Shown: positions 21,971 to 51,563 of the stretch, one piece after another | Position numbering within the stretch: position 1 is the first letter of the stretch | Layout of the letters: each line of letters begins with the position of its first letter | Position numbers and translations under genes: made by a program | The notes under the pieces: model-generated | Told to the model about the DNA's origin: nothing | What the model saw: the letters and a program-made list of their open reading frames with translations, nothing else | Databases searched by the model: none | From: Lepisosteus oculatus | Lineage: Eukaryota > Chordata > Actinopteri > Semionotiformes > Lepisosteidae | NCBI RefSeq assembly: GCF_040954835.1 | Contig: NC_090709.1 | Location: 39,734,975 to 39,798,974, forward strand | Direction of reading: 5' to 3' | Length of the DNA: 64,000 nt

Positions 21971-22058
21971 ACAAGACATGACTGACCCCCCCACAGCGGA
22001 GTACAGAGTCACACCCGAGGAGAGAGAAACAACACAACAGTAACACACACGCAAACTG
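21968..22058 (-). pseudogene. Truncated V-exon 5' fragment upstream of gene D
   Basis: The minus strand repeats the end of intron 1 and the first ~60 bases of the V exon (GVTLYSAVGGSV, then MSCEGS), and then runs straight into the 39-bp minisatellite. The acceptor is destroyed (TCGG instead of TCAGG) and the rest of the domain is missing. The gene D array is therefore bracketed by two V-exon starts. Confidence 0.75.
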
Positions 22059-25194: not shown

Positions 25195-26075
25195 CAAGCA
25201 AGCAATTCAATTGATTACCATATAGTGATCTGACTGAATTATTTGACAGCGATTTGGTAAATATGACTGAATGCGTTACTCCCAGAACCAACACAGTCAA
25301 AAAAAACAGGTACTTGATGAGCACGAGGATGAGGATGAGTCTTAAGTGGGATAATCCTCTCCTTTTTCAACATCTCTCATTCAGGTTCGAGTGTTTTCAG
25401 AGAGCCGTTTCCCCCCGGGCTGCCTGTCCCCTTCAATATTTACGCTGCGGCTCAAAACAAGATGAAGCAGGGCGTTTTTTTAAAAAAAAGGAAGCAGGAA
25501 GTCAGAAGTCAGGAAGTGTTAGAGGGACGGACAGGAAGTCAGCTCAGCGGCTGGAGCTCCATCCCCGGTGGCACTTCCTCTGCAGGGAGAATAAGAGGAG
25601 TCTGAGCTCAGAGGAGGGGCTGTGGACTCGGCAAAATGCAATTAAACCTTTTTAAAAAAAATAAATAAAACAGTACTAAACAGAGGCAAGTTCAAACAAT
25701 CATGAACAAGCTGAACTAGTCATGCGTTCTCGGAGATTAGTGAGTACTGTTCATTCATTGTAATGCATTAGGGCTCAAAGCAACTACTTTGCTGATTTTG
25801 TCGACAGATTATGTGGCAATAAGACCCTAACAGTTGAATGAGTAATGGGGGTATCCGTCAATTGAACCCAAAGAACCATTTTCTTTAACTAGATCTTCAT
25901 GTCGTAGTCACGAGTTGTAGCAATAAGGGAAGGGAAACGTTTCCTTTTGCCTGAAATTAATCGTACCTTGTTGTATTGATATACTCTTTTTACTGCAAAG
26001 GTTCTCAAAGTGGTTGGCTAACAGGAGTCACACTTTAACGGGAGACCCACGGCAGCCATTTTGTATGGTCTTAAG
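25195..26075. other. Non-repetitive gap 3' of gene C
   Basis: I see no gene. About 100 bases around 25.52-25.61 kb, including CACTTCCTCTGCAGGGAGAA, are closely similar to 33.52-33.60 kb, so this flank belongs to the duplicated gene C/gene B block. Confidence 0.6.
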
Positions 26076-26079
26076 TGAC

Positions 26080-26862
26080 TCCACTGCTAGTAATGTGAAC
26101 AGACCTGCTCTAGACTGACTCCACTGCTCTGTTACTGGAGTTTACAGCCTGTGGACAGACCTGCTCTAGACTGACTCCACTGCTCTGTTACTGGAGTTTA
26201 CAGCCTGTGGACAGACCTGCTCTAGACTGACTCCACTGCTCTGTTACTGGAGTTTACAGCCTGTGGACAGACCTGCTCTAGACTGACTCCACTGCTCCGT
26301 TACTGGAGTTTACAGCCTGTGGACAGACCTGCTCTAGACTGACTCCACTGCTCTGTTACTGGAGTTTACAGCCTGTGGACAGACCTGCTCTAGACTGACT
26401 CCACTGCTCCGTTACTGGAGTTTACAGCCTGTGGACAGACCTGCTCTAGACTGACTCCACTGCTCTGTTACTGGAGTTTACAGCCTGTGGACAGACCTGC
26501 TCTAGACTGACTCCACTGCTCCGTTACTGGAGTTTACAGCCTGTGGACAGACCTGCTCTAGACTGACTCCACTGCTCTGTTACTGGAGTTTACAGCCTGT
26601 GGACAGACCTGCTCTAGACTGACTCCACTGCTCTGTTACTGGAGTTTACAGCCTGTGGACAGACCTGCTCTAGACTGACTCCACTGCTCTGTTACTGGAG
26701 TTTACAGCCTGTGGACAGACCTGCTCTAGACTGACTCCACTGCTCTGTTACTGGAGTTTACAGCCTGTGGACAGACCTGCTCTAGACTGACTCCACTGCT
26801 CTGTTACTGGAGTTTACAGCCTGTGGACAGACCTGCTCTAGACTGACTCCACTGCTCTGTTA
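26080..26862. repeat. 56-bp minisatellite that begins at the stop codon of gene C
   Basis: About fourteen near-identical 56-bp units contain TTTACAGCCTGTGGACAGAC and TCTAGACTGACTCCACTGCT. On the minus strand each unit contains TAACAGAGCAG, and the first of these is the stop codon of gene C. The array therefore forms the start of its 3' untranslated region. Confidence 0.9.
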
Positions 26863-29521
26863 CTTGCCTGTGAGTTTGCTGTTCCTCCTCTTGTTGAAGA
26901 TGATGAGTCCAATGACCAGAGGGATGATCAAAACGATGATGAAAACAGTCAGTCTGAGTGACGTCTCCGCTAATGACAATTGAACTGAGAGAGATAGTAA
27001 TTATTTTAAATTATCTGTTATTCAAAACGAAACGTCAGGGATCAAAGCACTTTTCTACTGAGCTGAACTTGGATTTCACTGTACAAAGCTCATAAAATAA
27101 ATGTATTTTAAAAATATTTAGTTACAGAGAGAGTCACAGTAATACTCTTTAAAATATACCTATACTCTATACCTGTGAGGTGAATGGTGTAGGTATCAGA
27201 GGTCTTCATCACTCCTCTCTCTCTCAGTACACATGTCCAGTTCCTCATGTGGTCTGAACTCTGCAGCTTCATTGACAAGCTGCTGAAATGTCTGTCCTCT
27301 CTGATGTCCACTGTGTCCATGTGGTCACTCTCCCAGGTCACTGTGACTCCAGCGGGTACCCCAGGACAGCTCTGAAATCCGTCCCCACAGTCCAGACCAC
27401 ACTGGAGAGTGAGGACTGTGTCTGTCTTCAATTCTCCAGAGGGACTGGCAGAGACTGCAGAATGACATCACATGTGTCTTCAGAACAGGGACAGACACTG
27501 TTTCACACACTGACCTGATCAATGAGTCCAGACAGCAGATCAGAGCACAGGAAGGACAGACAGAGAGACAGAGGACCTGCAGATTCCTGACTGGACTCAT
27601 CAGGACCAGCACTGGGCTGGAGAGACAGAGGGGACAGTTAATGGAGACTGACTGACTGTGAAACACAGGGACATCAGACTCAGACTTACTGGACAGCAGG
27701 TAGAGATAAACAAGTGTTCGTCCAGGGAGATAAAAACTTCCATTGACGTTCTGCTCACAGATGTAGACTCCAGTGTCCTGAGTGTTGAGTGAGTGGATGT
27801 GTAGAGACCAGTCAGACCCCAGACTCAATCTCTCAGGCCTTCCTGCTTCACTGACTGTGATCATCTCCTTACTGTTCAGAATTCTGATTGGCTCAGATTT
27901 GTGATAAAAGCTCCACTCAAAGTAATACTTCTGATGGCATCTCGAACCCTCACAGGACATGTTGACTGACCCCCCCACAGTGGAGTACAGAGTCACACCT
28001 GAGGAGAGAAAATAACACACAGTAACACCTGACACCACCACACCTCCCACTGTGTCTCCTCTCACTCCTGATACCACCACAACTCCCTCTGTGTCTCTTT
28101 TCACTGCTGACACTACAACACCTTCCTCTGTGTCTCCTTTCACTCCTGATACCACAACACCTCCCACTGTGTCTCCTCTCACTCCTGACACCACCACAAC
28201 TCCCTCTGTGTCTCCTTTCACTGCTGACACTACAACACCTCCCTCTGTGTCTCCTTTCACTCCTGACACCACACACCTCCCACTGTCTCCTTTCACTCCT
28301 GACACCACCACACCTCCCACTGTGTCTCCTTTCAGTCCTGACACCACCACACCTCCCACTGTGTCTCCTTTCACTCCTGATACCACCACACCTCCCACTG
28401 CGTCTCCTTTCACTCCTGATACCACAACACCTCCCACTGCGTCTCCTTTCACTCCTGATACCACAACACCTCCCACTGTGTCTCCTTTCACTCCTGACAC
28501 CACCACACCTCCCACTGTGTCTCCTTTCACTCCTGACACCACCACACCTCCCACTGTGTCTCCTTTCACTCCTGACACCACAACACCTCCCACTGTGTCT
28601 CCTCTCACTCCTGACACCACCACACCTCCCACTGTGTCTCCTTTCACATCTGACACAACACACCTCCCACTGTGTCTCCTTTCACTCCTGATACCACAAC
28701 ACCTCCCACTGTGTCTCCTTTCACTCGTGACACCACCACACCTCCCACTGTGTCTCCTTTCACTCCTGACACCACCACACCTCCCACTGCGTCTCCTTTC
28801 ACTCCTGATACCACAACACCTCCCGCTGCGTCTCCTTTCACTCCTGACACCACAACACCTCCCACTGTGTCTCCTCTCACTCCTGACACCACCACACCTC
28901 CCACTGTGTCTCCTTTCACATCTGACAACACACCTCCCACTGTGTCTCCTTTCACTCCTGATACCACAACACCTCCCACTGTGTCTCCTTTCACTCCTGA
29001 CACCACCACACCTCCCACTGTGTCTCCTTTCACTCCTGACACCACACATCTCCCACTGTGTCTCCTCTCACTCCTGACACCACCACACCTCCCACTGTGT
29101 CTCCTTTCACTCCTGACACCACAGCACTGCCACACATTGTCACACACACGCACGCGCACGCGGCCACGCCCCTGGTGCGTACGCAGTGACGGGGGCCTGG
29201 AAGACGGGCGAGGTGAAAGAGCGACACGCGACCTTTCGAAGCCAGCAGCACACCCTCTCACGCACCCTGACTCCCAGTACCGAGGCCCGGGTGCGGGCCT
29301 CTGGACTCGGGGGGAAAATGCCGACGCCCAGACGAGGAGTGAAGCCCACTGTCGCTGGCTCACTAGTACAAGAGCTGAGGAACTCTCCCCCCCAGCCCCC
29401 CAACCCCACCCGCCGGCAAAGACCTGATCCGAGACTCACCTTCCACCCCCAGTCCCGGAGCCCAGGCCAGGAGGGAGAGCAGGGGGACGAGGGACGAAGC
29501 AGCCCGGAGCAGGAGATCCAT
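26860..29521 (-). CDS. Receptor C: two-Ig activating-type receptor with TM arginine and tiny tail
   Basis: Four exons: leader 29440-29521, V-set Ig 27690-27998, C-like Ig 27173-27454, and transmembrane/tail 26860-26984. Together they give 798 nt, or 265 residues, with every phase matching. The leader starts [15 protein letters not shown] and ends in GLGVEG. The V domain has the canonical Cys pair, FEW and DTGVYIC. The second Ig has a CGLDCG cluster and NWTC. The last exon encodes a helix entered by TSLRLTVF, with Arg at residue 235, and then only about ten cytoplasmic residues ([11 protein letters not shown]). In known receptors such as NKp46, GPVI and Fc-alpha-RI, an Arg near the outer end of the helix pairs with ITAM adaptors like FcR-gamma. 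That role is inferred here. The ectodomain is closest to D and E. The start ATG is the only one in the leader exon. Confidence 0.85.
28030..29130. repeat. 39-bp minisatellite in intron 1 of gene C
   Basis: About 28 units contain CCCACTGTGTCTCCTTTCAC and TCCTGACACCACCA. The array starts about 30 bases from the V-exon acceptor. Its 13-codon period keeps frames open on both strands for over a kilobase, in one case running on into the V exon. It lies between leader and V exons and is treated as intronic. Confidence 0.9.
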
Positions 29522-29574: not shown

Positions 29575-30000
29575 CTCAGCACCGATCAGCAGATATGGCC
29601 GACCGCGCGCTTCCTGCGCCTCCCCGGACCCACGTGCGCAGCAGAGCCACAGCCGAGACGCGCTCCAGCTGGGGGGGGCCGGGGGCTCCTCTCTCCACAG
29701 TTTCTCCCACCCGGGAGCCCCACAGAGCACACGGCCCCCGTCGGCGCCCGCTGGAGTTCAGGAGCAGCCCCCCTCGAGCGCGCTGCAGGGTCCGCAGGGG
29801 AACAGCCAGCCCCAGGGGGCGCCGGTGAGCCCCCCCCTGAGGTCACCTTGCCTGGCTGAACCCCCCAGCGAACCTACAGGGAGTCCCAGGGACAGCTGGG
29901 TGGGCACAGAGCCAGACGCCTCTCCTGCCTGAGCCTCAGAGGTGCCTGTTCCTACTGCTCTTCTGTCAACAGTGCAATTAATCACATGCTGGTAGACTGA
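29575..30000. repeat. Duplicated 5' flank of gene C (matches 37965-38375)
   Basis: Almost the same sequence, including CGCGCTTCCTGCGCCTCCCC and CTGGGGGGGGCCGGGGGCTC, lies upstream of the leader exons of C and B. It is GC-rich and shows no obvious TATA box. It probably includes the promoter of each gene. Confidence 0.75.
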
Positions 30001-30239: not shown

Positions 30240-30650
30240 TCCCATCGGAGGGAGAGAGGAGGTGCTGGAGATGGACGACAAGATAGGCCGATTCCGGGGC
30301 AGGAAGTGGAAACCAGCACTTCCTGTGTTGCTCCAGGAGCAGCCCCAGCCCCTGACTCTCACTGACAGGCAGGCCGGCAGGAGACCGGCCAAGACACTGG
30401 CCACATCTGGGGTCTGTCCTGCCCCCCGAGGAGCAGCCCAGTCCACTGGCCCCCCCAGACTCAGACTCTGGGCCCCCCCCACAGCCGCCGCTCGTGTGAG
30501 AGCGACTTCCTGCAGCGAGAGGGGGGCCCCCCGGGGAGCCGACCACATCGCTCACGAGTCTCGCTGGGCCGGAGGAACACAGCTGTGGGAGAGTCTGTCT
30601 CTCCGAGCCTCAGGGCCAGAACTGCTCTTGGGGTTCAGGCAGAACTAGGA
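30240..30650. repeat. Segment duplicated at 22440-22860
   Basis: The two copies are nearly identical from CAGGAAGTGG onward (about 350 bases). Plus-strand frames differ between the copies by frameshift, so I do not call a gene. It holds the conserved inverted ETS-type pair at 30300-30326. Confidence 0.75.
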
Positions 30651-31569: not shown

Positions 31570-33190
31570 CTGCGTCAGTCCAGTGGATATCCAGTCCAGC
31601 GCTAATCCAGTGCAGTGGGATCCCAGTCTGTGGGACAGTCAGTCCAGTGATTATCCAGTCCAGTCCAGTGGGATCCCAGTCTGTGGGATAGTCAGTCCAG
31701 TGGATATCCAGTCCAGTCCAGTGGGATCCCAGTCTGTGGGATAGTCAGTCCAGTGGATATCCAGTCCAGTCCAGTGGGATCCCAGTCTGTTGGATAGTCA
31801 GTCCAGTGATTATCCAGTCCAGTGGGATCCCAGTCTTTGGGATAGTCAGTCCAGTGGATATCCAGTCCAGTCCAGTGGGATCCCAGTCTGTTGGATAGTC
31901 AGTACAGTGATTATCCAGTCCAGTGGGATTGAAGTCTGAGGGATAGTCAGTGCAGTGGATATCCAGTCCAGTGCAGTGGGATTCCAGTCTGTTGGATAGC
32001 CAGTCCAGTGATTATCCAGTCCAGTGGGATCGCAGTCTGTGGGATAGTCAGTCCAGTGGATATCCAGTCCAGTCCAGTGGGATCCCAGTCTGTTGGATAG
32101 TCAGTCCAGTGATTATCCAGTCCAGTGGGATCACAGTCTTTGGGATAGTCAGTCCAGTGGATATCCTGTCCAGTCCAGTGGAATCCCAGTCTGTGGGATA
32201 GTCAGTCCAGTGGATATCCAGTCCAGTCCAGTGGGATCCCAGTCTGTGGGATAGTCAGTCCAGTGGATATCCAGTCCAGTCCAGTGGGATCCCAGTCTGT
32301 GGGATAGTCAGTCCAGTGGATATCCAGTCCAGTGCAGTGGGATCCCAGTCTGTTGGATAGTCAGTCCAGTGATTATCCAGTCCAGTGGGATTGAAGTCTG
32401 AGGGATAGTCAGTGCAGTGGATATCCAGTCCAGTGCAGTGGGATTCCAGTCTGTTGGATAGCCAGTCCAGTGATTATCCAGTCCAGTGGGATCGCAGTCT
32501 GTGGGATAGTCAGTCCAGTGGATATCCAGTCCAGTCCAGTGGGATCCCAGTCTGTTGGATAGTCAGTCCAGTGATTATCCAGTCCAGTGGGATCACAGTC
32601 TTTGGGATAGTCAGTCCAGTTTATATCCTGTCCAGTCCAGTGGAATCCCAGTCTGTGGGATAGTCAGTCCAGTGGATATCCAGTCCAGTCCAGTGGGATC
32701 CCAGTCTGTTGGATAGTCAGTCCAGTGATTATCCAGTCCAGTGGGATCCCAGTCTTTGGGATAGTCAGTCCAGTGGATATCCAGTCCAGTCCAGTGGGAT
32801 CCCAGTCTGTTGGATAGTCAGTCCAGTGATTATCCAGTCCAGTGGAATCCCAGTCTGAGGGATAGTCAGTCCAGTGGATATCCAGTCCAGTCCAGTGGGA
32901 TCCCAGTCTGTGGGACAGTCAGTCCAGTGGATATCCAGTCCAGTCCAGTGGGATCCCAGTCTGTGGGATAGTCAGTCCAGTAATTATCCAGTCCAGTGGA
33001 ATCCTAGTCTGTGGAATAGTCAGTCCAGTGGATATCCAGTCCAGTCCAGTGGGATCTCAGTCTGTGGGATAGTCAGTCCAGTGATTATCCAGTCCAGTGG
33101 AATCCTAGTCTGTGGAATAGTCAGTCCAGTGGATATCCAGTCCAGTCCAGTGGGATCCCAGACTGTGGGATAGTCAGTCCAGTGGATAAT
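31570..33190. repeat. CCAGTCCAGTG minisatellite with higher-order structure
   Basis: Two alternating monomers occur: about 53 bp with GGATATCCAGTCCAGTCCAG, and about 48 bp with GATTATCCAGTCCAGTGGGA. They combine into a higher-order unit: the stretch starting at 31950 recurs at 32412, exactly 462 bp later, with very few changes. The array lies 3' of gene B. Confidence 0.9.
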
Positions 33191-33194
33191 CAGT

Positions 33195-33660
33195 TTGGTG
33201 AATACCCAATTCAGAGTTGAACACACCTGTAAGCAGCACAGTCGATAAACAAGTTCGTTGATGATCACGATGAGTCGGAGGGATGGAATATGGGAATCGG
33301 GAGTCTGGGCAGCTGGACAGATGATGGTGGACATCGCTGGACCAGAACGACAGCACTGAAGCTCACAGCAGCATCTTGTGCTGCATCGCAGGAATTAACA
33401 AAACTGATGATTACGCACAAGCAGGGAAGTTTATGAAGAGCTCTCAACTTCCGTTTCTTCAGGCAGACACACAGGAACTATTCTCTCTCGGCACTAGGGG
33501 GAGGAGGGAACGGTTAGGAGGACGGACAAGAAGTCAGCGCTGCGGCTGGAGCTCAATCCCCGGTGACACTTCCTCTGCAGGGAGAATAAGATAAAAAAGG
33601 TAAGGTATGTTGAGCAACCATTTCTATTCAAACAGAAACAGAGCGGCCATTCTGCACCAA
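33195..33660. other. Non-repetitive gap 3' of gene B
   Basis: I see no gene. Part of it (33.52-33.60 kb) matches the gene C flank at 25.52-25.61 kb. Confidence 0.6.
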
Positions 33661-33664
33661 CAGA

Positions 33665-34350
33665 CCACTACTCTGTTACTGGAGTTTACAGCCTGTGGAC
33701 AGACCTGCTCTAGACTGACTCCACTGCTCTGTTATTGGAGTTTACAGCCTCTGGACACACCTGCTCTAGACTGACTCCACTGCTCTGTTACTGGAGTTTA
33801 CAGCCTGTGGACAGACCTGCTCTAGACTGACTCCACTGCTCCGTTACTGGAGTTTACAGTCTGTGGACAGACCTGCTCTAGACTGACTCCACTGCTCTGT
33901 TACTGGAGTTTACAGCCTGTGGACAGACCTGCTCTAGACTGACTCCACTGCTCTGTTACTGGAGTTTACAGCCTGTGGACGGACCTGCTCTAGACTGACT
34001 CCACTGCTCTGTTACTGGAGTTTATAGCCTGTGGACAGACCTGATCTAGACTGACTCCACTGCTCTGTTACTGGAGTTTACAGCCTGTGGACAGACCTGC
34101 TCTAGACTGACTCCGCTGATCAGTTACTGGAGTTTACAGTCTGTGAACAGACCTGCTCTAGACTGACTCCACTGCTCTGTTACTGGAGTTTATAGCCTGT
34201 GGACAGACCTGCTCTAGACTGACTCCACTGCTCTGTTACTGGAGTTTACAGCCTGTGGACAGACCTGCTCTAGACTGACTCCGCTGATCCATTACTGGAG
34301 TTTACAGCCTGTGGACAGACCTGCTCTAGACTGACTCCGCTGCTCTGTTA
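33665..34350. repeat. 56-bp minisatellite that begins at the stop codon of gene B
   Basis: About twelve units of the family seen at 26.08-26.86 kb are present, somewhat more diverged (for example GCTGATCAGTTACTGG variants). As in gene C, the unit closest to the gene supplies the TAA stop. Confidence 0.9.
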
Positions 34351-37300
34351 CTTGCCTGTGAGTCTGCTGTTCCTTTTGGTGTAAATGACAATCCCAACGA
34401 GCAGAGGCACCAACAGAAGGATGGTGAAAATGCTCAGTCTGACTGCAAGAGACAGTACCGACGCTGGACCTGATGGATGGATGGATTTAAGAAACGTGAG
34501 AGACGGTCAAGGTGCAGTTTGGCGATTCACACAGAAAAAGGTCGGCCGTTACATTAGACTCTGAAAACAAGAGGAAAAATCTTGCCGATAGCAACAATTC
34601 ACTTTCCCTACGTATTCACCAGAAAGATTTCTTTTCTTCTAATATTCAACCTATAAACATTAAAGTATATACAGTACTCTCTATTGCAACCACAATGCAC
34701 ATGTGGGTGTTAACTGACGATGTGTTTTAAATTAGGTTTGCTGGAGAAATAAATCTCAGCCCTTCATAAATATTGTAAATGGGGAAACCTTTTCTGGTCT
34801 TTCAGTGACCACTTACATATAATGATCTTCTTGTATCTACGCTGCTGACAGTGAAAGAAAGAGACTGTTGTTACAACCAGTGTCATTCTCTAGGTCTAGA
34901 GCTTCATCAGTTATTGTTCTACTGTAATGGTACAAATCACCTGGTTCCAGCGAGACTCCGATGGTCCATTCCTGGGAGACCCCGTGTGCTCTGTCTCCCA
35001 TCACGCTGCACTGCATCCTCTCAGAGCTCTGCGGCTCAAGAACAACGGTGGAGCTGACAGTATTCCCAGTGCGCTCACTGGCGCCGCCCTGCAGGCTGTC
35101 CCCGGTACTGTTCCTCCAGAGCAGCTGGGTGGTTTTATCACAGGCAGAGGAACAGGTGAGGAGGCAGGTCAGGGTGACGTTGGAGCCCCTCTGCATCACT
35201 CCAGGCAGGTCTGAACTCACTAGATCAACCAGAAAAGCCAATTATTTAAGGGAAAAGTTAAGACTTTAAGGTCTATCCTTAGTGTCACTGAGAGATACTC
35301 TCACTGTCTTGCTGTGTTGATCACTGAGGGACTCTCTGTGATCTCCTCTTTCTCTGTGTCTCCTGTCCTGTTGTGTGTGTTTATTACTGAAAGACTCCTG
35401 TTCTCTCCCCCTCTTCCTTGTGGTGTCTCCTGTCACTACTCAAGAGATTATCTTTTATTCAGTGTTTAAAATCTGAAATCCTGAATCTGCAGTCTCCTGA
35501 CCTGACAAGGTGTTCAGCTGGATCTTCTGAAGGCTGTCCTTGTTCTGGAGACACAGGTAGACTCCGCTGTCCCCCATCTGGACGCTGCGTATCAGCAGGG
35601 AGGAGTTGACCGCCATGTCCACTCTGTCCCTGTCCACCTCCATCCCCGTGATCCGACTTCCGTTCCCCAGTAACGTGAACAGGGTCCGGTAGCCGAAGGT
35701 GCCAGATCTTCTGAAGCCCCACTGCAGTCTGTCCCCTCGTCCCAGACGGACAGTGTCCACACAGGGCAGCTGCAGGAATCCTCCCACACTGCTGTACAGG
35801 TCCTGGGTGAAATCTGTGGAGGAAGAGCAAGGGACACACTGAGACACTCCCACACTTTCAAGACCAACCCACTCCGTTCTCTCCCCTCGCCCCAGAGGGA
35901 CAGTGTCCACACAGGACTGCTGAAGAAATCATTTCACAGGACCGTTCAGACTCCTCCCTGCTATCTGTGGAAGGACAGCAGGGACACACACCTTTGAACA
36001 TCAACCCACTCCAGGTTGTGGAGAGGAGTGTGGGTAGCTCAGGTAGCAGAGAACGAGGTTAGAGGTCAGTGGAACGACCTCTCACAGGAACATGATCTGC
36101 AGGAGGAAGAGGAGTCATGGACAGCACCCTGCCCACCTGTGAGTACAGCGGTGAAGGTATCGTAGGTCTTGAGCTCGGTTCCTTTCAGCAGCGCACAGAC
36201 CCAGTTCTTGTTGTGATCTGATCTCTGCAGAGTCACTGAGAGCTGACTGTATGTCCTGAAATCTCTGATCTGGGATCTGCCCATCTCCACCTTCCGCACG
36301 AGATCCGGATCTCTCCACCAGGACATAGTCAGTCCCTCGGGAGTCTCCAAGCAGCTTCCCAGTCCAGCTCCACAGTCCAGCCCACACCTGAGGGTCAGCA
36401 TACTACCGGTCCGCAGGTTCCCAGAGGGAGAGGCTGTCACTGAGGAAAGAGCACATGGAGCTTCTCATCAATACCCTTCCGATCATCATCAATACCCTTC
36501 AATCAACACCCAGACCTTCCAATCATCATCAATACATTTCAATCGTTAATCATCATCAAGACCCCTGCATCATCAATAATCATCCCTACCTTCCAATCAT
36601 CATCAATACCCTTCAGTCAACATCCAGACTTTCAATCATCATCAATATCTTTCAATCATCATCTATACCCTTCCGATCGTCATCAATCCCATTCAATCAA
36701 CACCCAGACCTTCCAATCATCATCAATACCTTTCAATCGTTAATGATCAAGAACTTTCAATCATCATCAATATCTTTCAATCATCATCTATACCCTTCAA
36801 GGCGTTGTCAACTGTCAACAAGAGGCTTTGATTATCAGAAGGGAAAGAGAGACACAGATGAGTGAAGGAGAGGCAGGGAGAGAGAGAGAGAGAGAGAGAT
36901 GTAAACTGATCTCCACATGGACACAGACACCGAGAACGACGTTCTTACAGGAGAGCAGGTAGAGAGTGGCCGTTGTCCCAGTTCGATGATACTCTCCACT
37001 GACGTACTGCACACAGGTGTACAGTCCAGAGTCCTGAGGCCAGAGAGATCGGATGTGTAGAGACCAGTCTGGCCCCACACGCAGCCTCCCTGCTCTCTCT
37101 GGGTCTCTGACTGTGATCGTCTTATCTTTGCTCAGGAAGATGGGTGCCCCTGGATTTTGACTGAAGACCCACACAATAGACGATCTGTTCATCTCTTTCA
37201 GATTCTCACAGGGCAGACCCACTGACCCCCCCACAGTGGAGTACACAGTCACTCCTGGGGAGGGAAAAGAACACAACAGTTAAACCTGATATCACCACAC

Positions 37301-37907
37301 CTCCCACTGTGTCTCCTTTCGCTGCTGACACCACAACACCTCCCACTGTGTCTCCTTTCACACCTGATACCACCACACCTCCCACTGCGTCTCCTTTCAC
37401 TCCTGACACCACAACACCTCCCACTGTCTCCATTCACTGCTGACACCACAACACCTCCCACTGTGTCTCCTTTCACTCCTGACACCACACACCTCCCACT
37501 GTGTCTCCTTTCACTCCTGATACCACAACACCTCCAACTGTCTCCTTTCACTCCTGATACCACAACACCTCCAACTGTGTCTTCTATCACACTTGATACT
37601 ACAACACCTCCCACTGTGTCTCCATTCACTGCTGACACCACCACACCTCCAACTGTCTCCTTTCACTCCTCATACCACAACACCTCCCACTGTGTCTCCT
37701 ATCACACCTGATACCACAACACCCCCCACTGTGTCTCCTTTCACATCTGATACCACCACACCTCCCAGAACACCCTTCATCTGAGGGCTGAGACACGGAC
37801 CCCCCCCCGCCTCGAACCCGAGACTCACCTTCCACCCCCAGTCCCGCAGCCCAGGCCAGGAGGGAGAGCAGGGGGACGAGGGACGAAGCCCGGAGCAGGA
37901 GATCCAT
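34348..37907 (-). CDS. Receptor B: four-Ig activating-type receptor with TM arginine
   Basis: Six exons: leader 37829-37907, V-set 36949-37254, C-like 36137-36439, second V-like 35502-35813, second C-like 34941-35219, transmembrane/tail 34348-34469. Total 1401 nt, 466 residues, all phases matching. Approximate domains: leader 1-26, Ig1 27-128, Ig2 129-229, Ig3 230-333, Ig4 334-426. Ig1 has IVWVF and DSGLYTC; Ig3 has DSGVYLC and sequons NGS and NSS. The helix is entered by SLAVRLSIF, with Arg 437, and ends in a nine-residue tail (KRNSRLTGK) without an ITIM. This is the layout of receptors that signal through ITAM adaptors, so activation is inferred. The ectodomain is nearly that of gene A, while leader, intron-1 minisatellite, TM/tail exon and 3' array match gene C. 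The gene therefore looks like a mosaic. Confidence 0.85.
35825..35935 (-). pseudogene. Remnant of a duplicated V-like exon in gene B
   Basis: Just upstream of the Ig3 exon, the minus strand reads DTVPLGRGERTEW, clearly related to DTVRLGRGDRLQW in Ig3. The beginning with the domain's first Cys and everything after the Trp are missing. No donor is present. A fuller version lies in gene A at 45660-45800. Confidence 0.7.
36455..36835. repeat. Low-complexity CAATCATCATCAATACC repeat in a gene B intron
   Basis: Irregular repeats of AATCATCATCAATACCTTTC fill the intron between the V and C-like exons. Gene A has the same repeat, longer, at 46.37-46.93 kb. Confidence 0.85.
37285..37775. repeat. 39-bp minisatellite in intron 1 of gene B
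   Basis: About twelve units of the same CCCACTGTGTCTCCTTTCAC family as in genes C, D and E are present, with several shortened units. It lies between the leader and V exons. Confidence 0.85.
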
Positions 37908-37964: not shown

Positions 37965-38480
37965 GCACAGAGAACGCAGATGTGGACACTGCCGACCGCG
38001 CGCTTCCTGCGCCTCCCCGGACCCACGTGCGCAGCAGAGCCACAGCCGAGACGCGCTCCAGCTGGGGGGGGCCGGGGGCTCCTCTCTCCACAGTTTCTCC
38101 CACCCGGGAGCCCCACAGAGCACACGGCCCCCCGTCGGCGCCCGCTGGAGTTCAGGAGCAGCCCCCATCGAGCGCGCTGCAGGGTCCGCAGGGGAACAGC
38201 CAGCCCCAGGGGGCGCCGGTGAGCCCCCCCCTGAGGTCACCTTGCCTGGCTGAACCCCCCAGCGAACCTACAGGGAGTCCCAGGGACAGCTGGGTGGGCA
38301 CAGAGCCAGACGCCTCTCCTGCCTGAGCCTCAGAGGTGCCTGTTCCTACTGCTCTTCTGTCAACAGTGCCATTAATCACATAATGATCACACACACACAC
38401 ACAGTCTCAGTTCTCCTGGGGGGTGTGTGTGTGTGTGGTGTGTTTCCGCGCTGCTGCATCTTGAGTGAAATCTGAGCACA
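37965..38480. repeat. Duplicated 5' flank of gene B (matches 29590-30115)
   Basis: The match to the gene C flank includes the GC-rich block and the text up to GAGTGAAATCTGAGCACAGT. To the right of about 38.5 kb the two flanks diverge. Confidence 0.75.
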
Positions 38481-40908: not shown

Positions 40909-41345
40909 CTACCTCCCCTCTCTGATGTCAGAGTAAATAACGGCGTCGCTGTCCTCTGGCAGGACGCGTCCTGTCCCGGGTCCTCCTCTCTTGGCCTGGA
41001 AGGCCACGCTGGCGTAGTGGACGTCCTCGCCGCCCCGGACGGGAGAGCTCTGGACGAGCGCGGGGGGAGGGAGAGGGAGAGAGGGGCTCAGCAGGAGCTC
41101 AGCCCCGTCCGCTTCGGGGAGCCGGGGCGAGGGATCAGCGCCGCCGCGGCGGGAACGATCCCGGACCGTGACCGGGGGGCTCTCCTGGCCAGACTCCCCG
41201 CGGGGTGAGGTCAGCGGGGAGGGGTGGGGAAGAGAGGGTGAAGACAGGCGGGCAGGTAGACAGACAGGCAGGCAGGCAGGTAGACAGGTAGACAGGCAGG
41301 CAGGCAGACAGGTAGGCAGGTAGGCAGGCAGGCAGGCAGACAGGT

Positions 41346-41376
<31 letters not shown>

Positions 41377-43313
41377 CGGGCAGAAGGGCAGAAAGGCAGG
41401 CAGGCAGAAGGGCAGGCAGGCAGGTAGACAGGTAGACAGGCAGGCGGGCAGGCAGACAGGTAGATGGGCAGGCAGGCAGGCAGGTAGACAGGCAGGCAGG
41501 CAGACAGGCAGGCAGGCAGGCAGACAGGCAGGCAGGTAGACGGGCAGGTAGACGGGCAGGTAGACAGGCAGGTAGACAGGCAGGTAGACAGGCAGGTAGG
41601 TAGACAGGCAGACAGGCAGGCAGACAGGCAGGCAGGTAGACAGGTAGACAGGCAGGCAGGTAGACAGGCAGGCAGGCAGGCAGGTAGACAGGTAGACAGG
41701 CAGGCAGGCAGACAGGCAGGCAGGCAGGCAGACAGGCAGGCAGACAGGCAGGCAGACAGGCAGGCAGGAGGGGGGTGCGGACGGTTACCGTGGGCTCGGT
41801 GGGGCTGGCGTAGACGATGAGGTCTTCTTCCGTCGTCACGCAGACTCCCGGACCTGCTGGGCGGAGAGCGAGGGGCATGAGAGCACAGCCCAGCCCACAG
41901 TCAGTCGGGACACCAGGACCACCGGTCACGGAGCTGGCGGGATCCCGCGTCGTTCCCGGAGGTCAGTCCTGTCCTCCGCGGCCCACGCCGTGACCTCCAT
42001 CACTCCCCGGGAGCCTGCCCGCCCCACCCGGGACGACCCGGGTCCGGTTCTCCTCGGCTCTCAGGGCGACCCGACTGCAGGCACCTCAGAACTCTGGGTT
42101 CTGCCGTACCCCGATACTCTGTAGACGCGGTGGCGCCTAGCTGTGCATCTCAGTGCACCTGCCCTGACCTCTGACCTTTGACCTGGAAGGCCACGCCCCA
42201 GAGGGGCACGGAGCTGCCCTGCTCTTCCTCAGGACCCGACTCCCTCTGCACGCACGCCGAACCCCGGCCTGACCTCTGACCTTCGACCTGGAAGGCCACG
42301 CCCCAGAGGGGCACGGAGCTGCCCTGCTCTTCCTCAGGACCCGACTCCCTCTGCACGCACGCCGAACCCCGGCCTGACCTCTGACCTTCGACCTGGAAGG
42401 CCACGCCCCAGAGGGGCACGGAGCTGCCCTGCTCTTCCTCAGGACCCCACTCCCTGCACGCACGCCGAACCCGGGCCCGACCTCTGACCTTTGACCTTGG
42501 AAGGCCGCGCCAGGGAGGCGCTCACCTGCCCTGCTGTGCCTCCTCTTGATCAGGAGGAAGGCGACGGTGGCGAGGACCAGCAGCGCACAGAAGACTCCAG
42601 CCACGGACACCGCGGTCGTCACGGGGAACTCGTCCGGGACCTCTGTCACAGTGAAAGTGTGGAAATACCTCAGGCACTGACCCAGCAGCTCGTAGGGTGG
42701 GCAGTATGAAGACCCTTGCGGCTTCACAGTGCCGAGGCTCGGGGTTCAGTTCTGGACCAGCGGCACTGTCTGTGGGGAGTTTGCATGTCCACACATGGGT
42801 TCACTCTGGGGACTCCCATAGTCCGAAGACCTGCGGGCGGGTTCGTGGGCTTCTGGGAAAACTGGCCCTGGTGCGAGTGTGTCCTGTGATGGACTGGCGT
42901 CCTGTCCAGGGTGTGTGAGTGTGTGTGTGTGTGTCCTGTGATGGACTGGTGTCCTGTCCAGGGTGTGTGTGAGTGTGTGTGTGTCCTGTGATGGACTGGT
43001 GTCCTGTCCAGGGTGTGTGTGAGTGTGTGTGTGTCCTGTGATGGACTGGTGTCCTGTCCAGGGTGTGTGAGTGTGTGTGTGTGTCCTGTGATGGACTGGC
43101 GTCCTGTCCAGGGTGTGTGAGTGTGTGTGTGTGTGTGTGTGTCCTGTGATGGACTGGCGTCCTGTCCAGGGTGTGTGAGTGTGTGTGTGTGTGTCCTGTG
43201 ATGGACTGGTGTCCTGTCCAGGGTGTGTGTGTGTGTGTCCTGTGATGGACTGGTGTCCTGTCCAGGGTGTGTGTGTGTGTGTGTGTGTCCTGTGATGGAC
43301 TGGTGTCCTGTCC

Positions 43314-43354
<41 letters not shown>

Positions 43355-46300
43355 TGTGATGGACTGTTGTCCTGTCCAGGGTGTGTGTGTGTCCTGTGAT
43401 GGACTGTTGTCCTGTCCAGGGTGTGTGTGTGTCCTGTGATGGACTGGTGTCCTGTCCAGGGTGTGTGTGAGTGTGTGTGTCCTGTGATGGACTGCTGTCC
43501 TGTCCAGGGTGTGTGAGTGTGTGTGTGTGTCCTGTGATGGACTGGTGTCCTGTCCAGGGTATGTGTGAGTGTGTGTGTGTGTCCTGTGATGGACTGGTGT
43601 CCTGTCCAGGGTATGTGTGAGTGTGTATGTGTGTCCTGTCCAGGGTGTGTGAGTGTGTGTATTGTGCCTGTTGCTTGCTGGAAAACACACAAAACAAAGA
43701 GAGTTTTTTATACTCTCAGTGCGGACAGAGTCTGCAGCCACCTGACAGAAGAGCAGCAGCAGCAGCACAAGTAACTGCTGGAGACCGACGCAGGGTCACC
43801 TGGTTCCAGCGAGACTCCGATGGTCCATTCCTGGGAGACCCTGTGTCCTCTGTCTCCCATCACGCTGCACTGCATCCTCTCAGAGCTCTGCGGCTCAAGA
43901 ACAACGGTGGAGCTGACAGTATTCCCAGTGCGCTCACTGGCGCCGCCCTGCAGGCTGTCCCCGGTACTGTTCCTCCAGAGCAGCCGGGTGGTTTCATCAC
44001 AGGAAGAGGAACAGGTGAGGAGGCAGGTCAGGGTGACGTTGGAGCCCCTCTGCACCACTCCAGAGGGGTCTGAGCTCACTGGAATGAACAGCACGGCACT
44101 AAACACACACTGCACTCTGACCCCAGGCCCTCTCCCTAACTGTGTGTCTGTGTGTCTCATGGAGAGACAGCTGTCTGTGATCTCCTCTCTCTCACTGTGT
44201 CTCCTGTCCTGCTGTGTGTGTTTATGACTGAGGGGCTCCCTGTGATCTCCTCTCTCTCACTGTGTCTCCTGTCCTGCTGTGTGTGTTTATGACTGAGGGG
44301 CTCCCTGTGATCTCCTCTCTCTCACTGTGTCTCCTGTCCTGCTGTGTGTGTTTATGACTGAGGGGCTCCCTGTGCTCTCCTCTCTCTCACTGTGTCTCCT
44401 GTCCTGCTGTGTGTGTTTTTGACTGAGGGACTCCCTGTGATCTCCTCTCTCTCACTGTGTCTCCTGTCCTGCCTTGTGATAGTGGAGACTCCGATAACTG
44501 GGGGGTGGACCAGGTGTCCACGTCTGTAAGGAAAACGGGCCAGCTCCTGTTTGGAAGAACACTTGGGATTTATTCAGACACTGCACTTTGGTCATTGAAG
44601 AGCCCTGTGATGACTAAGGGACACACTTCACTCTCAGAGCCGTGTCCTCAGGTACCGTCCTAAAACAGTTGCTAAAACAACAGGACAGCCCAGAAGCCGC
44701 CCAGACATCACGAGGGAGTCAGGATTCCAAGCTGCAGTGTGTCACTGAGCTTGATCTGTTAGTTCCATTTCTGGAGGAAAATGGCGTGTCCTACAGTTCA
44801 CTCACAGGCGCAGTAAAACAAAAGATATGCGCCCCCCCCCCTATACTGTACTATACCTGTCAGACCAGGCTGGTAACTCCTCAGCGTACAACAGAAATAG
44901 GACGTTGTATACATTGCTCGCAAATACAACGATATAACACTACAAGACGAAATAATATTTGCAGGAAAGGCCTTCACAGTTGTAAGAGGACCAGGGTCAT
45001 TTAGAACCTGTATTTCCGGAACGAAACGCTTAATAGACTCGATATAGACCTGAGCAAGATGGCCGCCATCTATAGCTCAGGAGTACCAGCTGACCCGCTG
45101 CTGGAAAAGGCCTATGCAAGGAGACACGGGCGAGCTACATCAGGACACAGGATATAAATGACCCTTCCCCTGGTCCTCCCACAACAGACATAAACAAAGA
45201 GGACGATATGACTGCAGCCGGTAGCTCATGTCTGTCAGGACACAATCCGCACTCGGATGAACACAGATGACCAGCAGCAGGATCCAAAGGACAAATTACA
45301 GTGAGGGCAGAGGCTCCTGACCTGACAAGGTGTTGAGCTGGATCTCCTGAAGGTTGTCCTTGTTCTGGAGACACAGGTAGACTCCGCTGTCCCCCGTCTG
45401 GACGCTGCGTATCAGCAGGGAGGAGTTGACCGTCATGTCCACTCTGTCCCCGTCCACCTCCATCCCCGTGATCCGACTTCCGTTCCCCAGTAATGTGAAC
45501 AGGGCATGGTAGGTGATGGTGCCAGATCTTCTGAAGCTCCACTGCAGTCTGTCCCCTCGTCCCAGACGGACAGTGTCCACACAGGGCAGCTGCAGGAATC
45601 CTCCCACACTGCTGTACAGGTCCTGGGTGTAATCTGTGGAGGAAGAGCAAGGGACACACTGAGACACTCCCACACTTTCAAGACCAACCCACTCCGTTCT
45701 CTCCCCTCGCCCCAGAGGGACAGTGTCCACTCCTGCTGTCCTAGTGTCCAGCAGTACTCTCCCACTGCTGTACAGGTCCTGGAAGGGATCTGCGGCCTGG
45801 AGCTTGGGTAGGTGACCGAATGGACCCCAGGCAGCAGAGAAACAGAGGAAACCACGATGTCTTAAAGAAGAAAAGGACATAAACGTGAAAAAAGGAGGAC
45901 AGGGGTCATGTGAGAACGCGGTATCGGAGAACAAGGTCGCAACAGGTCAGGGAAATTAAAGAGGCAGAACTGGGACATGACCTGCAAGATGAAGAAGATG
46001 AGGAGGAGGAGGAGGAGAATTTGACAGCTCAGCGCCCACCTGTGAGTACAGAGGTGAAGGTATCATAGGTCTTGAGCTCGGTTCCTTTCGCCAGCACACA
46101 GACCCAGTTCTTGTTGTGATCTGATCTCTGCAGAGTCACTGAGAGCTGACTGTATGTCCTGAAATCTCTGATCTGGGATCTGCCCGTGTCCACCTTCCCC
46201 ACGAGATCCTGATCTCTCCGCCAGGACACAGTCAGTCCCTCGGGAACCCTGGAGCAGCTTCCCAGTCCAGCTCCACAGTCCAGCCCACACCTGAGGGTCA

Positions 46301-49115
46301 GCACACTACCGGTCCGCAGGTTCCCAGAGGGAGAGGCTGTCACTGAGGAAAGAGCACATGGAGCTTCTCATCAATACCCTTCCGATCATCATCAATACCC
46401 TTCAATCAACACCCAGACCTTCCAATGATCCTCAATACCCTTCTGATCATCATCATCATCAATACCTTCCAATCGTTAATCACCATCAAGAACTTTCAAT
46501 CATCATCACACCTTCCGATCATCATCAATACCCTTAGAATAACACCTAGACCTTCCAATCATCATCAATATCTTTCCATCGTTAATGATCAAGAACTTTC
46601 AATCATCAATACCTTCCAATCATCATCAATACCGTTCAACCATTAATCATCATCAAGACCCTTGACTCATCAATAATCATCACTGCCTTCCAGTCATCAA
46701 TACCCTTCAATCAACATCCAGACTTCCGAATCATCATCAATACCCTTCAATCATCATAAATACCTTTCAATCGTTAATCATCATCAAGAAATTTCCATCA
46801 TCATCAATACCGTCCAATCATCTATACCCTCCCGATCATCATCAGTACCTTCCAATATTCATCAATACCCTTCAATCAACATCCAGTTTCCAATCATCAT
46901 CAATATATTTCAATCATCATCTATGCCCTTCAACTGTCAACAAGAGGTTTTGATTATCAGAAGGGAAAAAGAGAGACAGAGATGAGTGAAGGAGAGGCAG
47001 GGAGAGAGAGAGAGAGAGAGATGTAAACTGATCTCCACATGGACACAGACACCGAGAACGGCGTTCTTACAGGAGAGCAGGTAGAGAGTGGCCGTTGTCC
47101 CAGATCGATAATACTCTCTACCAGCATACTGCACACAGGTGTACAGTCCAGAGTCCTGAGGCCTGAGAGATCGGATGTGTAGAGACCAGTCTGGCCCCAC
47201 ACGCAGCCTCCCTGCTCTCTCTGGGTCTCTGACTGTGATCGTCTTATCTTTGCTCAGGAAGATGGGTTCCCCTGGATTTTGACTGAAGACCCACACAATA
47301 GACAATCTGTTCATCTCTTTCAGATTCTCACAGGGCAGACCCACTGACCCCCCCACAGTGGAGTACACAGTCACTCCTGGGGAGACAAAAAAACAGAAAG
47401 AATATTTCACACTGTACACTCTGCACATCTGTCACTGTGAACAGGGGAGTATGAAGGAGGTGATCAGTAGACTGTAGATCTCCAGGTGTCAGTGTGAGCA
47501 GGAGTGTGGAGGAGGTGATCAGTAGACTGTAGATCTCAAGGTGTCAGTGTGAACAGGAGTGTGGAGGAGGTGATCAGTAGACTGTAGATCTCCAGGTGTC
47601 AGTGAGAACAGGAGTGTGGAGGAGGTGATTAGTACTGTAGATCTCCAGGTGTCAGTGTGAGCAGGAGTGTGGAGGAGGTGATCAGTACTGTAGATCTCCA
47701 GGTGTCAGTGTGAGCAGGAGTGTGGAGGAGGTGATCAGTACTGTAGATCTCCAGGTGTCAGTGTGAACAGGAGTGTGGAGGAGGTGATCAGTAGACTGTA
47801 GATCTCCAGGTGTCAGTGTGAGCAGGAGTGTGGAGGAGGTGATCAGTACTGTAGATCTCCAGGTGTCAGTGTGAGCAGGAGTGTGGAGGAGGTGATCAGT
47901 ACTGCAGATCTCCAGGTGTCAGTGTGAACAGGAGTGTGGAGGAGGTGATCAGTACTGTAGATCTCCAGGTGTCAGTGTGAACAGGAGTGTGGAGGAGGTG
48001 ATCAGTAGACTGTAGATCTCCAGGTGTCAGTGTGAACAGGAGTGTGGAGGAGGTGATCAGTAGACTGTAGATCTCCAGGTGTCAGTGTGAACAGGAGTGT
48101 GGAGGAGGTGATCAGTACTGTAGATCTCCAGGTGTCAGTGTGAGCAGGAGTGTGGAGGAGGTGATCAGTACTGTAGATCTCCAGGTGTCAGTGTGAGCAG
48201 GAGTGTGGAGGAGGTGATCAGTAGACTGTAGATCCCCAGGTGTTAGTGTGAGCAGGAGTGTGGAGGAGGTGATCAGTACTGTAGATCTCCAGGTGTCAGT
48301 GTGAGCAGGAGTGTGGAGGAGGTGATCAGTAGACTGTAGATCTCCAGGTGTCAGTGTGAACAGGAGTGTGGAGGAGGTGATCAGTACTGTAGATCTCCAG
48401 GTGTCAGTGTGAGCAGGAGTGTGGAGGAGGTGATCAGTAGACTGTAGATCCCCAGGTGTCAGTGTGAGCAGGAGTGTGGAGGAGGTGATCAGTAGACTGT
48501 AGATCTCCAGGTGTCAGTGTGAGCAGGAGTGTGGAGGAGGTGATCAGTAGACTGTAGATCTCCAGGTGTCAGTGTGAGCAGGAGTGTGGAGGAGGTGATC
48601 AGTAGACTGTAGATCTGTCCCCCCGCGGTGAGTCAGCGAGCCCAGCCCGCCCTGCTCGGCAGAAGAGGAAGTGATGAAACCGGCAGAGCGCAGGGGCGGG
48701 AGCCGACCTCTCGTCACGCGGATGTCGGGCAACATCCTAACCGTCGCCAGCTGCCCTCGCGGTCCCGGCCAGCGCGCACTACCCTCGGGGCGACGGGACG
48801 AAACGACCCGCTGCCGAGACGTCGGCCAGGGCCCAGAGCTGACCCTCCTGTCCCACCCTCTTGTTCCGAACTGCTGCCTCTTGCTCAGACAGGGACCAGG
48901 TGTCCCAGATATTAGAGACAGCGGCACCTGCGCCTGTATCTGTGCCCGTCCGTCCGCTGAACATGGTTTCCAACAGGCACAAGGCAGGTTCACCTTGGAC
49001 AGGACACCAGTCCATCACAGGACACACACACACTCACACACCCCGGACAGGACACCAGTCCATCACAGGACACACACACACTCACACACCCTGGACAGGA
49101 CACCAGTCCATCACA

Positions 49116-49165
<50 letters not shown>

Positions 49166-49678
49166 GACAGGACACCAGTCCATCACAGGACACACACACA
49201 CACACACACACACACCCTGGACAGGACACCAGTCCATCACAGGACGCACACACTCACTCACACACCCTGGACAGGACACCAGTCCATCACAGGACACACA
49301 CACACTCACACACCCTGGACAGGACACCAGTCCATCACAGGACACACACACACTCACACACCCTGGACAGGACACCAGTCCATCACAGGACACACACACA
49401 CTCACACACCCTGGACAGGACACCAGTCCATCACAGGACACACACACACTCACACACCCTGGACAGGACACCAGTCCGTCACAGGATACACTCACACACA
49501 CCCTGGACAGGACACCAGTCCGTCACAGGATACACTCACACACACCCTGGACAGGACACCAGTCCGTCACAGGACACACACACACTCACACAACCGGACT
49601 CCTCCCCGACTCACCTCCCACGCGGAGCCCCGGCGCGCCGGCCAGGAGCAGGCAGAGCAGAGGGGCCAGGGGGCCCAT
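40909..49678 (-). CDS. Receptor A: four-Ig inhibitory-type receptor with two ITIMs
   Basis: Eight exons: leader 49615-49678, V-set 47071-47376, C-like 46040-46342, V-like 45322-45633, second C-like 43800-44078, transmembrane 42526-42642, short cytoplasmic exon 41789-41853 (65 nt), tail 40909-41049. Total 1587 nt, 528 residues, every phase matching. The leader reads MGPLAPLLCLLLAGAPGLRV. Ig1 spans about 22-123, Ig2 124-224, Ig3 225-328 and Ig4 329-421, with an uncharged helix at about 430-453 followed by KRRHSR. The short exon contains EEDLIVYASP. The tail has VHYASV (Tyr 494) and VIYSDI (Tyr 521), both fitting the ITIM pattern that recruits SHP phosphatases in known receptors. Inhibition is inferred from these motifs. 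The ectodomain pairs closely with gene B. Introns are filled by different minisatellites. Confidence 0.87.
41225..41770. repeat. CAGG/TAGA tetranucleotide repeat in the last intron of gene A
   Basis: The block is about 540 bases of CAGG with interspersed TAGACAGG and CAGACAGG. The equivalent intron of gene E carries a shorter version at 54.85-54.97 kb. The long Leu/Pro/Ala/Cys frame on the minus strand is a repeat artefact. Confidence 0.95.
42140..42515. repeat. 105-bp tandem repeat in the intron after the gene A transmembrane exon
   Basis: Three to four units with GACCTGGAAGGCCACGCCCC and GAGCTGCCCTGCTCTTCCTC repeat at exactly 105 bp (starts at 42181, 42286 and 42391). As 105 is a multiple of three, the minus-strand frame of the TM exon stays open through the whole array. 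Confidence 0.9.
42700..42920 (+). mobile_element. Truncated fish SINE
   Basis: Text such as TGGGGAGTTTGCATG, GACTCCCATAGTCCGAAGAC and CCTGTGATGGACTGGCGTCC matches conserved parts of the widespread tRNA-derived SINEs of fish. Its 3' part passes directly into the minisatellite at 42.89-43.66 kb. Confidence 0.7.
42890..43660. repeat. SINE-tail minisatellite (TGATGGACTGGTGTCCTGTCCAGG)n plus GT tracts
   Basis: About seventeen copies of CTGTGATGGACTGGTGTCCT followed by GTCCAGGGTGTGTG are separated by GT tracts of variable length. The unit is the 3' segment of the adjoining SINE. It lies in the intron between Ig4 and TM of gene A. The His/Thr-rich frames on the minus strand are artefacts. Confidence 0.9.
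44165..44475. repeat. 65-bp tandem repeat in a gene A intron
   Basis: Four to five units contain GATCTCCTCTCTCTCACTGT and TGCTGTGTGTGTTTATGACT at 65-bp spacing. A single diverged copy lies at the same place in gene B (35.33-35.40 kb), so expansion happened in A. Confidence 0.85.
44476..45315. other. Intron text between Ig4 and Ig3 of gene A
   Basis: No exon or repeat is recognised. A YY1-like word (AGATGGCGGC on the minus strand, near 45070) is present; its relevance is unknown. Confidence 0.5.
45660..45800 (-). pseudogene. Remnant of a duplicated V-like exon in gene A
   Basis: The minus strand has an acceptor, then DPFQDLYSSG and DTVPLGRGERTEW, matching the first half of the neighbouring Ig3 exon (DYTQDLYSSVGG, DTVRLGRGDRLQW). 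The segment with the conserved Cys is altered, the second half is missing and no donor follows. The remnant predates the split of genes A and B, because B keeps part of it. Confidence 0.75.
46370..46935. repeat. Low-complexity AATCATCATCAATACC repeat in a gene A intron
   Basis: Irregular repeats of CCTTCAATCATCATCAATAC fill the intron between the V and C-like exons. It corresponds to 36.46-36.83 kb in gene B. Confidence 0.85.
47430..48620. repeat. 52/55-bp minisatellite in intron 1 of gene A
   Basis: About 22 units contain GGAGTGTGGAGGAGGTGATC, then AGTAGACTGTAGATCTCC or AGTACTGTAGATCTCC, then AGGTGTCAGTGTGA. Units of 55 and 52 bp are intermixed. Gene A has this array where the other paralogues have the 39-bp family. 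Confidence 0.95.
48990..49590. repeat. SINE-tail minisatellite, inverted relative to 43 kb
   Basis: About twelve copies of CCTGGACAGGACACCAGTCC followed by ATCACAGGACACACACAC are the reverse complement of the array at 42.89-43.66 kb. It ends about 25 bases before the leader-exon donor of gene A. A single copy also lies at 55.25 kb. Confidence 0.9.
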
Positions 49679-51280: not shown

Positions 51281-51512
51281 GAATTCTGGAGCTGGACTGA
51301 CGGTGCTACTTATTGACTTACTGTTCAGGATCTCGCTACGTCACCTCCCGCGCCCCGAAAACAAACAAACAAACAAACAAACAAACAACTTTCTTCTCCC
51401 GGTCGAGAGTCTGATGCAAAACAAATTTCGTTTTTGCTGAAAAAAAAAAAACGTCGACTGACGAGTTCATGGCAAAGACCTGCCCCCACCCACACACACC
51501 CCAAAAAAAGAC

Positions 51513-51561: not shown

Positions 51562-51563
<2 letters not shown>

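Follow-up and report, generated by a model that had tools for sequence, protein, structure and literature searches.

Gene content of the cluster

What lies in this stretch of the Lepisosteus oculatus genome? In the window, by which we mean the whole 64,000 nucleotides analysed (contig NC_090709.1 of assembly GCF_040954835.1, positions 39,734,975 to 39,798,974), open frames, exon peptide searches and splice sites reveal five receptor genes, A to E, all on the minus strand (table 1). Our subject is gene B, a mosaic whose four immunoglobulin (Ig) exons are near-identical to those of gene A and whose 5′ end is near-identical to that of gene C. An earlier account, made from the letters alone and here called the sequence-only reading, had described it as the ectodomain of A in the shell of C.

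The assembled coding sequences of A, B and C are in frame and stop-terminated; those of D and E were assembled short of their ends. By regular expression (one further match in the D3 ectodomain of A and one in the V of C being set aside) the tail of gene A carries two immunoreceptor tyrosine-based inhibitory motifs (ITIMs), making A the inhibitory-type partner. The tails of B and C contain none, and in both genes the transmembrane (TM) segment carries an arginine. The four Ig exons V, D2, D3 and D4 measure 306, 303, 312 and 279 bp in A and in B, in phase 1 and with open frames. Within the window the exon peptide search found D3 and D4 exons in A and B only. The end assigned to gene B in the sequence-only reading, 34348, probably falls short: the gene appears to continue to a tail exon beyond an array.

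Table 1. Features of gene B and of its neighbours in the window (TRF, Tandem Repeats Finder; positions are those of the window).
Feature	Position	Strand	Remarks
B 5′ block	37991..38379	-	near-identical to C 29985-29598; 386/388 aligned bases, one gap column
B leader exon	37829..37907	-	donor gtgagtct; within C-like island 37914-37818
39-bp array, B intron 1	37285..37767	.	TRF, blastn; common to C, D, E
B V exon, 306 bp, A-like	36949..37254	-	exon 296/306 vs A; Pfam V-set
B D2 exon, 303 bp, A-like	36137..36439	-	exon 285/303; preceding intron flank 62/62 vs A
B D2-D3 intron interior, diverged homologue of A intron interior	35900..36126	.	135/227, 83 gap columns
B D3 exon, 312 bp, A-like	35502..35813	-	exon 297/312; preceding intron flank 86/86 vs A
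B D4 exon, 279 bp, A-like	34941..35219	-	exon 269/279 vs A
B D4-TM intron, no relation to A or C	34470..34936	.	window search
B TM exon, Arg near start of membrane segment	34356..34469	-	75/111 vs C, 37/102 vs A; hydropathy
56-bp array	33665..34352	.	TRF; 93.9% to C over 784 columns, stretch including end of TM exon
B tail exon EEVSPGIELQPQR*, no tyrosine	33534..33574	-	phase-1 acceptor tgcag
Gene B	33534..37907	-	leader, V, D2, D3, D4, TM with Arg, tail exon
Gene A	40909..49678 (leader start 49678, stop 40909)	-	leader, V, D2, D3, D4, TM, tail exons C1 and C2
Gene C	25539..29521	-	activating-type, two Ig; leader, V, D2, TM with Arg, tail exon; B-type leader, TM, tail
C distal 5′ block	30313..30645	-	near-identical to D block ~22850-22520; alignment, identities uncounted
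Gene D	leader 22423	-	V, D2, TM, last exon with one ITIM
Gene E	leader 61079	-	V, D2, TM, C1, last exon with two ITIMs

The ectodomain of gene B

How closely do A and B agree? Over the ectodomain 359 of 399 residues are identical (40/399 differ), as are 1135 of the 1188 codon-aligned bases (V 293/303, D2 282/300, D3 294/309 and D4 266/276). The equal exon lengths and near-identical residues from which the sequence-only reading set out are thus borne out.

This likeness comes as four exon islands, not as the single tract between two sharp identity switches that had been predicted. The A-like tract starts close to the V acceptor at 37254, no more than ~10 bp away (9/11 identical just before the acceptor, 14/33 further out), in agreement with the 5′ switch earlier placed at 37.25–37.29 kb. 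The V island extends 137 bp into the following intron of B, a flank identical to A at 132 of 135 bases, and the D4 island ends 4–6 bp beyond its exon (34/73 before and 17/42 after, compared with A). Between the islands, the intron interiors of A and B agree at 243/310 positions with 219 gap columns and at 135/227 with 83 gap columns; elsewhere the figure is ~40–47%. The D4–TM intron, in which the 3′ switch had been expected (between 34.47 and 34.94 kb), matches neither A nor C: besides itself, a search of the window with 34936–34470 returned one 22-bp match (E=0.30).

The part of the D2–D3 intron interior at 36126–35990 is still homologous between A and B (score 52, against a maximum of 38 in 400 shuffles). 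The same intron is therefore old in one part and very recent in another, with 92/227 differences in the interior and 0/86 in the flank (p=3e-16). Inside this intron lies a D3-like pseudo-exon, in B at 35868–35989 and in A at 45688–45795. The copies match their own gene's D3 with scores of 84 and 62 (0/400 shuffles as high), and the edge of the D3 island falls within the pseudo-exon. Aligned directly, the 5′ halves of the two copies are barely above shuffles (score 26, reached by 6/400), so that the homology of these halves rests on the match of each to its own D3.

What would a block duplication look like here? The window provides one. The tandem duplication 61948–60270 / 53364–51280 is continuous, with 93–100% of aligned bases identical per block and 97.8% over the best stretch; its interruptions are indels, the largest of ~360 bp. 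In full it spans 60270–64000 and 51280–54815, at ~96–98%, and runs continuously through exon and intron except for indels and an array. Set against this control, the A–B islands with their old interiors are taken as a signature of conversion and not of a block move.

The 5′ end, membrane exon and tail of gene B

The 5′ flank of B is C-like, as the sequence-only reading had it, agreeing with C at 90% over 704 columns and including the near-identical block of 388 bp (table 1). In that block the longest exact run is 202 bp, compared with a maximum of 169 in 10000 column shuffles, and the right edge is sharp, the adjoining stretch being identical at 42 of 69 positions. The leader is equally close to C (77/78 bases), and the island around it, 37914–37818, matches at 96/97 with a 3-bp indel. 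The 39-bp array of intron 1, also claimed as a C feature, does occur in C but is shared with D and E, and the end of B intron 1 resembles all three. Gene A has in its intron 1 an array of 55-bp units (TRF), unlike the 39-bp array of B, C, D and E.

The membrane exon is nearer to C than to A; the match to C claimed for it is weak, however, one aligned stretch giving 74% over 96 columns. At synonymous sites the TM exons of B and C differ at ~9/30, against 8/294 in the A–B ectodomain (p=2e-6). Since the synonymous difference is ~9/30 in the TM exon and 8/294 in the ectodomain, and the 5′ block differs from that of C at only 2 of 388 bases, the ages disagree. We conclude from these divergences that the activating end of B is old, and that its A-like ectodomain and its C-like 5′ end are recent and separate.

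Where does gene B end? The TM exons of B and C share phase 1 with the other exons and end ACAG/GCAAGT (the stroke marks the exon boundary). Within the window the string CAGGCAAGT occurs on the strand of these genes at these two exon ends only; the opposite strand has it once. Beyond the array B and C each show an acceptor in phase 1, followed by an exon of 41 bases whose stop is at the same place in both; the exon reads EEVSPGIELQPQR in B and EEVPPGMELQPLS in C. Given a GC donor in phase 1 and a phase-1, stop-bearing exon beyond the array in both genes, the 56-bp array is probably an intron. Its match to C, reported earlier, holds, but the stop codon then assigned to it probably lies in intron sequence. 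Were the intron retained, the frame would stop after two more residues, and the tail is without an ITIM either way. The B and C tails are identical at 32 of 36 bases, with 4 nonsynonymous and 0 synonymous differences in an exon too short for a test of selection. An array-filled intron behind a GC donor might also make the splicing of both activating receptors subject to regulation. Minisatellite arrays abound in the window (120 TRF rows, some overlapping); a long one of 53/48-bp units, at 31606–33188, lies downstream of the B tail exon.

Conflicting exon histories

Do the exons of B share one history? Among A, B and C, informative sites at which A=B and those at which B=C number 0:15 in the leader, 90:5 in V, 91:2 in D2 and 9:39 in TM. 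Approximately unbiased (AU) tests of six topologies rejected, for V+D2, the three that place B with C (p 6e-52 or less) and, for leader+TM, the three that place A with B (p 2.2e-5 or less); for TM alone the A-with-B topologies were again rejected (p 1.4e-5 or less). Conflict among exon trees was the test that the sequence-only reading had set itself, and the conflict is found. Because exon identities, informative sites and AU tests disagree between exons, B is mosaic well beyond chance.

Amino-acid replacement between A and B

The Ig exons of A and B differ at 45/894 nonsynonymous and 8/294 synonymous sites, a ratio of nonsynonymous to synonymous change (dN/dS) of 1.88. The nonsynonymous count exceeds that of the intron flanks within the islands (3/283, p=0.0017, a count biased low, the island edges having been placed by high identity) and that of the pooled neutral sites (11/577, p=0.0019). 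Of the eight V changes five lie in residues 82–94, which make up the FG region in the V model (p=0.0007, for a region chosen after seeing the data). Because the flank count is biased low and other gene pairs are without such an excess, we call the excess of amino-acid change after homogenisation suggestive.

Origin of the mosaic

What process might have given gene B these ages? On the sequence comparisons above we consider it probable that B is an ancient receptor of the activating type, that exon-sized conversion recently made its Ig exons and those of the inhibitory gene A alike, and that its 5′ block and leader were converted separately with C. Gene B would have started as an old activating-type paired receptor with an Arg-bearing membrane segment. 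Interlocus gene conversion, exon-sized and recurrent between tandem genes of the same orientation, would have homogenised its four Ig exons with those of A. Separate recent conversions would account for the near-identity of its 5′ block and leader to those of the activating-type C. Once homogenised, the A–B exons would have accumulated amino-acid changes in excess of what neutral sites lead one to expect. Gene B may bind something close to the ligand of A, a common ligand being plausible from the likeness of the ectodomains. Its membrane arginine may recruit an adaptor with an immunoreceptor tyrosine-based activation motif (ITAM), a partner of the Dap12 type being conceivable for B or C; A would signal through its two ITIMs. 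Gene B might thus serve as activating counterpart, or as decoy, for whatever A binds. We infer conversion as the molecular process, and likewise the adaptor pairing, the ligand and the function.

Several points weigh against this account, the low bias of the flank count among them. The AU test on the leader exon alone has no power to decide a topology, and D3 and D4, confined to A and B, have no tree. When the A–B differences are polarised with C, D and E as outgroups they point both ways as to the direction of copying: in V one is derived in B, four in A and five are undecided; in D2 eight are derived in B, two in A and eight are undecided. For A and B, dN against dS alone is not significant (Fisher p=0.10), and no replacement excess appears in the other pairs (pooled V+D2 dN/dS 0.83 for D–E, 0.77 for C–D and 0.80 for C–E). 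The sample, moreover, is one assembly with five genes.

Could a single exon shuffle, moving the V–D4 block of A once into a C-type activating gene, have sufficed? It would give the exon pattern observed (leader as in C, V–D4 as in A, TM as in C) and the informative-site counts listed above. However, away from their edges the shared introns are old or cannot be aligned where exons and flanks are recent, the B–C TM exons are far older than the A–B likeness, and the D4–TM intron matches neither gene. The sequence-only reading finds support where it names gene conversion and an activating-type receptor with an A-like ectodomain. Its transplant into a C shell in one step fails, because the TM exon differs at 9/30 synonymous sites against 8/294 and the introns inside the block are old; we consider such a shuffle improbable. 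In a tandem cluster so rich in repeats one might fear that the assembly had wrongly fused parts of A with parts of C, but the B intron 34936–34470 is found nowhere else in the window and the Ig exons of B have private differences, an intact frame and intact splice sites, which leaves such an artefact very improbable.

Ordinary duplication of A and B without conversion, followed by purifying selection on exons and fast turnover of introns, would suit introns full of minisatellites. Yet synonymous sites (8/294) and intron flanks (3/283) have changed less than amino-acid sites (45/894), the real duplicate in the window has continuous introns, and sharp edges occur inside a homologous, non-array intron; this alternative is scarcely credible. 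A question of direction, compatible with exon-sized conversion of B, is whether C is the derived chimera at its 5′ end, a D/E-type gene that was given the promoter block and leader of B. C keeps a D-like distal block at ~30645–30313 and a D-like V–D2 block that ends at the D2 donor. On the other side, the direction of 5′ copying cannot be read from two sequences, and the B–C TM exons are so far apart that neither gene recently took its TM exon from the other. We regard a chimeric C as possible, leaning somewhat against it.

Mosaics elsewhere in the cluster

By the same kind of comparison gene C is itself a mosaic. It has two 5′ blocks, one D-like (30313–30645) and one B-like (29598–29985); the stretch 30651–30253 agrees with D at 94.7% over 399 columns. 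Its V–D2 block follows D up to the D2 donor, and B-like pieces lie between and after the D-like ones. Against D, the V exon of C is identical at 255/309 positions, the next intron at 220/235 and D2 at 266/282 (V against intron, p=9e-5). In its divergence from D this V exon (27690–27998) far exceeds D2 and the intron between them, synonymous sites included, and it was perhaps copied from an unseen paralogue.

The C1 tail exons of A and E are identical at 62 of 63 bases, within an island (41769–41889 and 54977–55097) of 96.7% over 121 bp; the TM exons and leaders of A and E differ. We suggest, tentatively, an exchange along two axes. Ligand-binding exons would pass between signalling classes (A and B; D/E and C), and promoter blocks, leaders and signalling exons within a class (the 5′ block and leader of B and C; the C1 tail exon of A and E), re-assorting expression and signalling against specificity.

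A second copy of the E leader exon, its donor intact, lies at 52495–52405, upstream of the leader of gene A itself. No V exon was found between the two, and A may use two alternative first exons. A truncated V fragment occurs at 21962–22015, upstream of the intron-1 array of D.

Family membership

To which family might these receptors belong? In A, B and C the Pfam models that passed the cut-off were generic Ig ones, with V-set best. Among the best 60 of 3577 matches of a PDB sequence search we found antibody and other generic Ig chains, and a second such search gave five weak matches (best E 0.059). A fold search with the V model placed NTB-A best, then CD166, TCR, TIGIT and CAR (14–26% identity, among 50 matches listed), generic Ig again; the D2 model had 0 matches at E<=0.001. 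Within A, V and D3 align with a score of 79 (shuffle maximum 60), and D2 and D4 with a score of 55 (maximum 61 of 1000 shuffles, z 4.3).

SLAM/CD2 receptors have a Ly9-like V-C2-V-C2 arrangement, a C2 with four Cys, a tail with the immunoreceptor tyrosine-based switch motif (ITSM) and a V without the canonical Cys pair. In the tail of A, the only tail scanned, the ITSM TxYxx[VI] is absent, and the V of A has Cys16 and Cys81, i.e. the canonical pair; on these two features membership was rejected. No paper title naming this cluster was met among the titles found, fish receptor families being included and titles alone inspected. A search of passages of PMC8423624 (bowfin genome) for receptor names gave nothing helpful for the cluster.

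Comparison with known paired receptors

How does the A–B pair compare with known systems, as far as the portions of the papers cited here describe them? The bony-fish NITRs are clustered V-domain receptors, mostly ITIM-bearing, with a few activating members for which an interaction between a charged membrane residue and Dap12 is reported (PMC2442602). The present cluster resembles them in its clustered V-domain receptors, its ITIM-bearing majority and its activating members with a charged TM. Unlike NITRs, gene A lacks the strict FGxGT motif in its four Ig domains (J-like variants lay outside the test), and its D2 and D4 have four Cys each, against the six conserved Cys of the I domain; NITR membership was rejected.

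As in conversion-matched paired receptors, A and B combine a near-identical ectodomain with signalling parts that, from their motifs, appear opposite, and their exon likeness is younger than the flanking introns. In the CD300A/CD300C pair (PMC12447643) and the mammalian CEACAM1-like pairs (PMC2832619) the ectodomain is homogenised and the signalling parts have diverged. In canine CEACAM1/CEACAM28 the region of high similarity covers intron 1, the leader and ~1 kb upstream (PMC2832619). These are different families, and a promoter block common to two activating genes was not met in the portions at hand. Siglec-11 and Siglec-16 form an inhibitory/activating pair whose ectodomains are kept alike by repeated conversion, with relaxed constraint and similar glycan binding as measured (PMC5701461). 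A and B share with them a probably conversion-matched pair judged against introns and synonymous sites as the neutral yardstick. They differ in that a replacement excess is suggested for A and B, which are known from sequence alone.

The Xenopus CEACAM pairs show the pattern too. There, conversion between inhibitory and activating genes is confined to the exon that binds the ligand, the introns around it are poorly conserved, and nonsynonymous change has followed on the CC'C''FG face; opposite gene orientation is held to be required (PMC5112662). Probable exon-confined conversion, old introns and a suggested later excess of replacement change recur in A and B. Compared by description, not by sequence, the Xenopus genes concern one N exon in opposite orientation, and A and B four Ig exons in the same orientation with an Arg-bearing TM. 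The pair suggests that tandem genes of the same orientation are able to homogenise in this way, over four exons.

Overwriting the sensing part of an activating receptor with copies that it shares with its inhibitory neighbour is a known way of keeping pairs matched, and gene B would be an independent case, a receptor of activating type in which the sensing exons stay close to those of the inhibitory gene next to it. The window offers an internal control, the true duplication, and also two adjacent sets of activating and inhibitory genes. A comparison of the cluster across species could test whether activating receptors counter-evolve where ligands exploit their inhibitory counterparts. Set beside the known cases, what is new here is the extent over four Ig exons, the same orientation of the genes and a second exchange, of promoter and leader, within the activating class.

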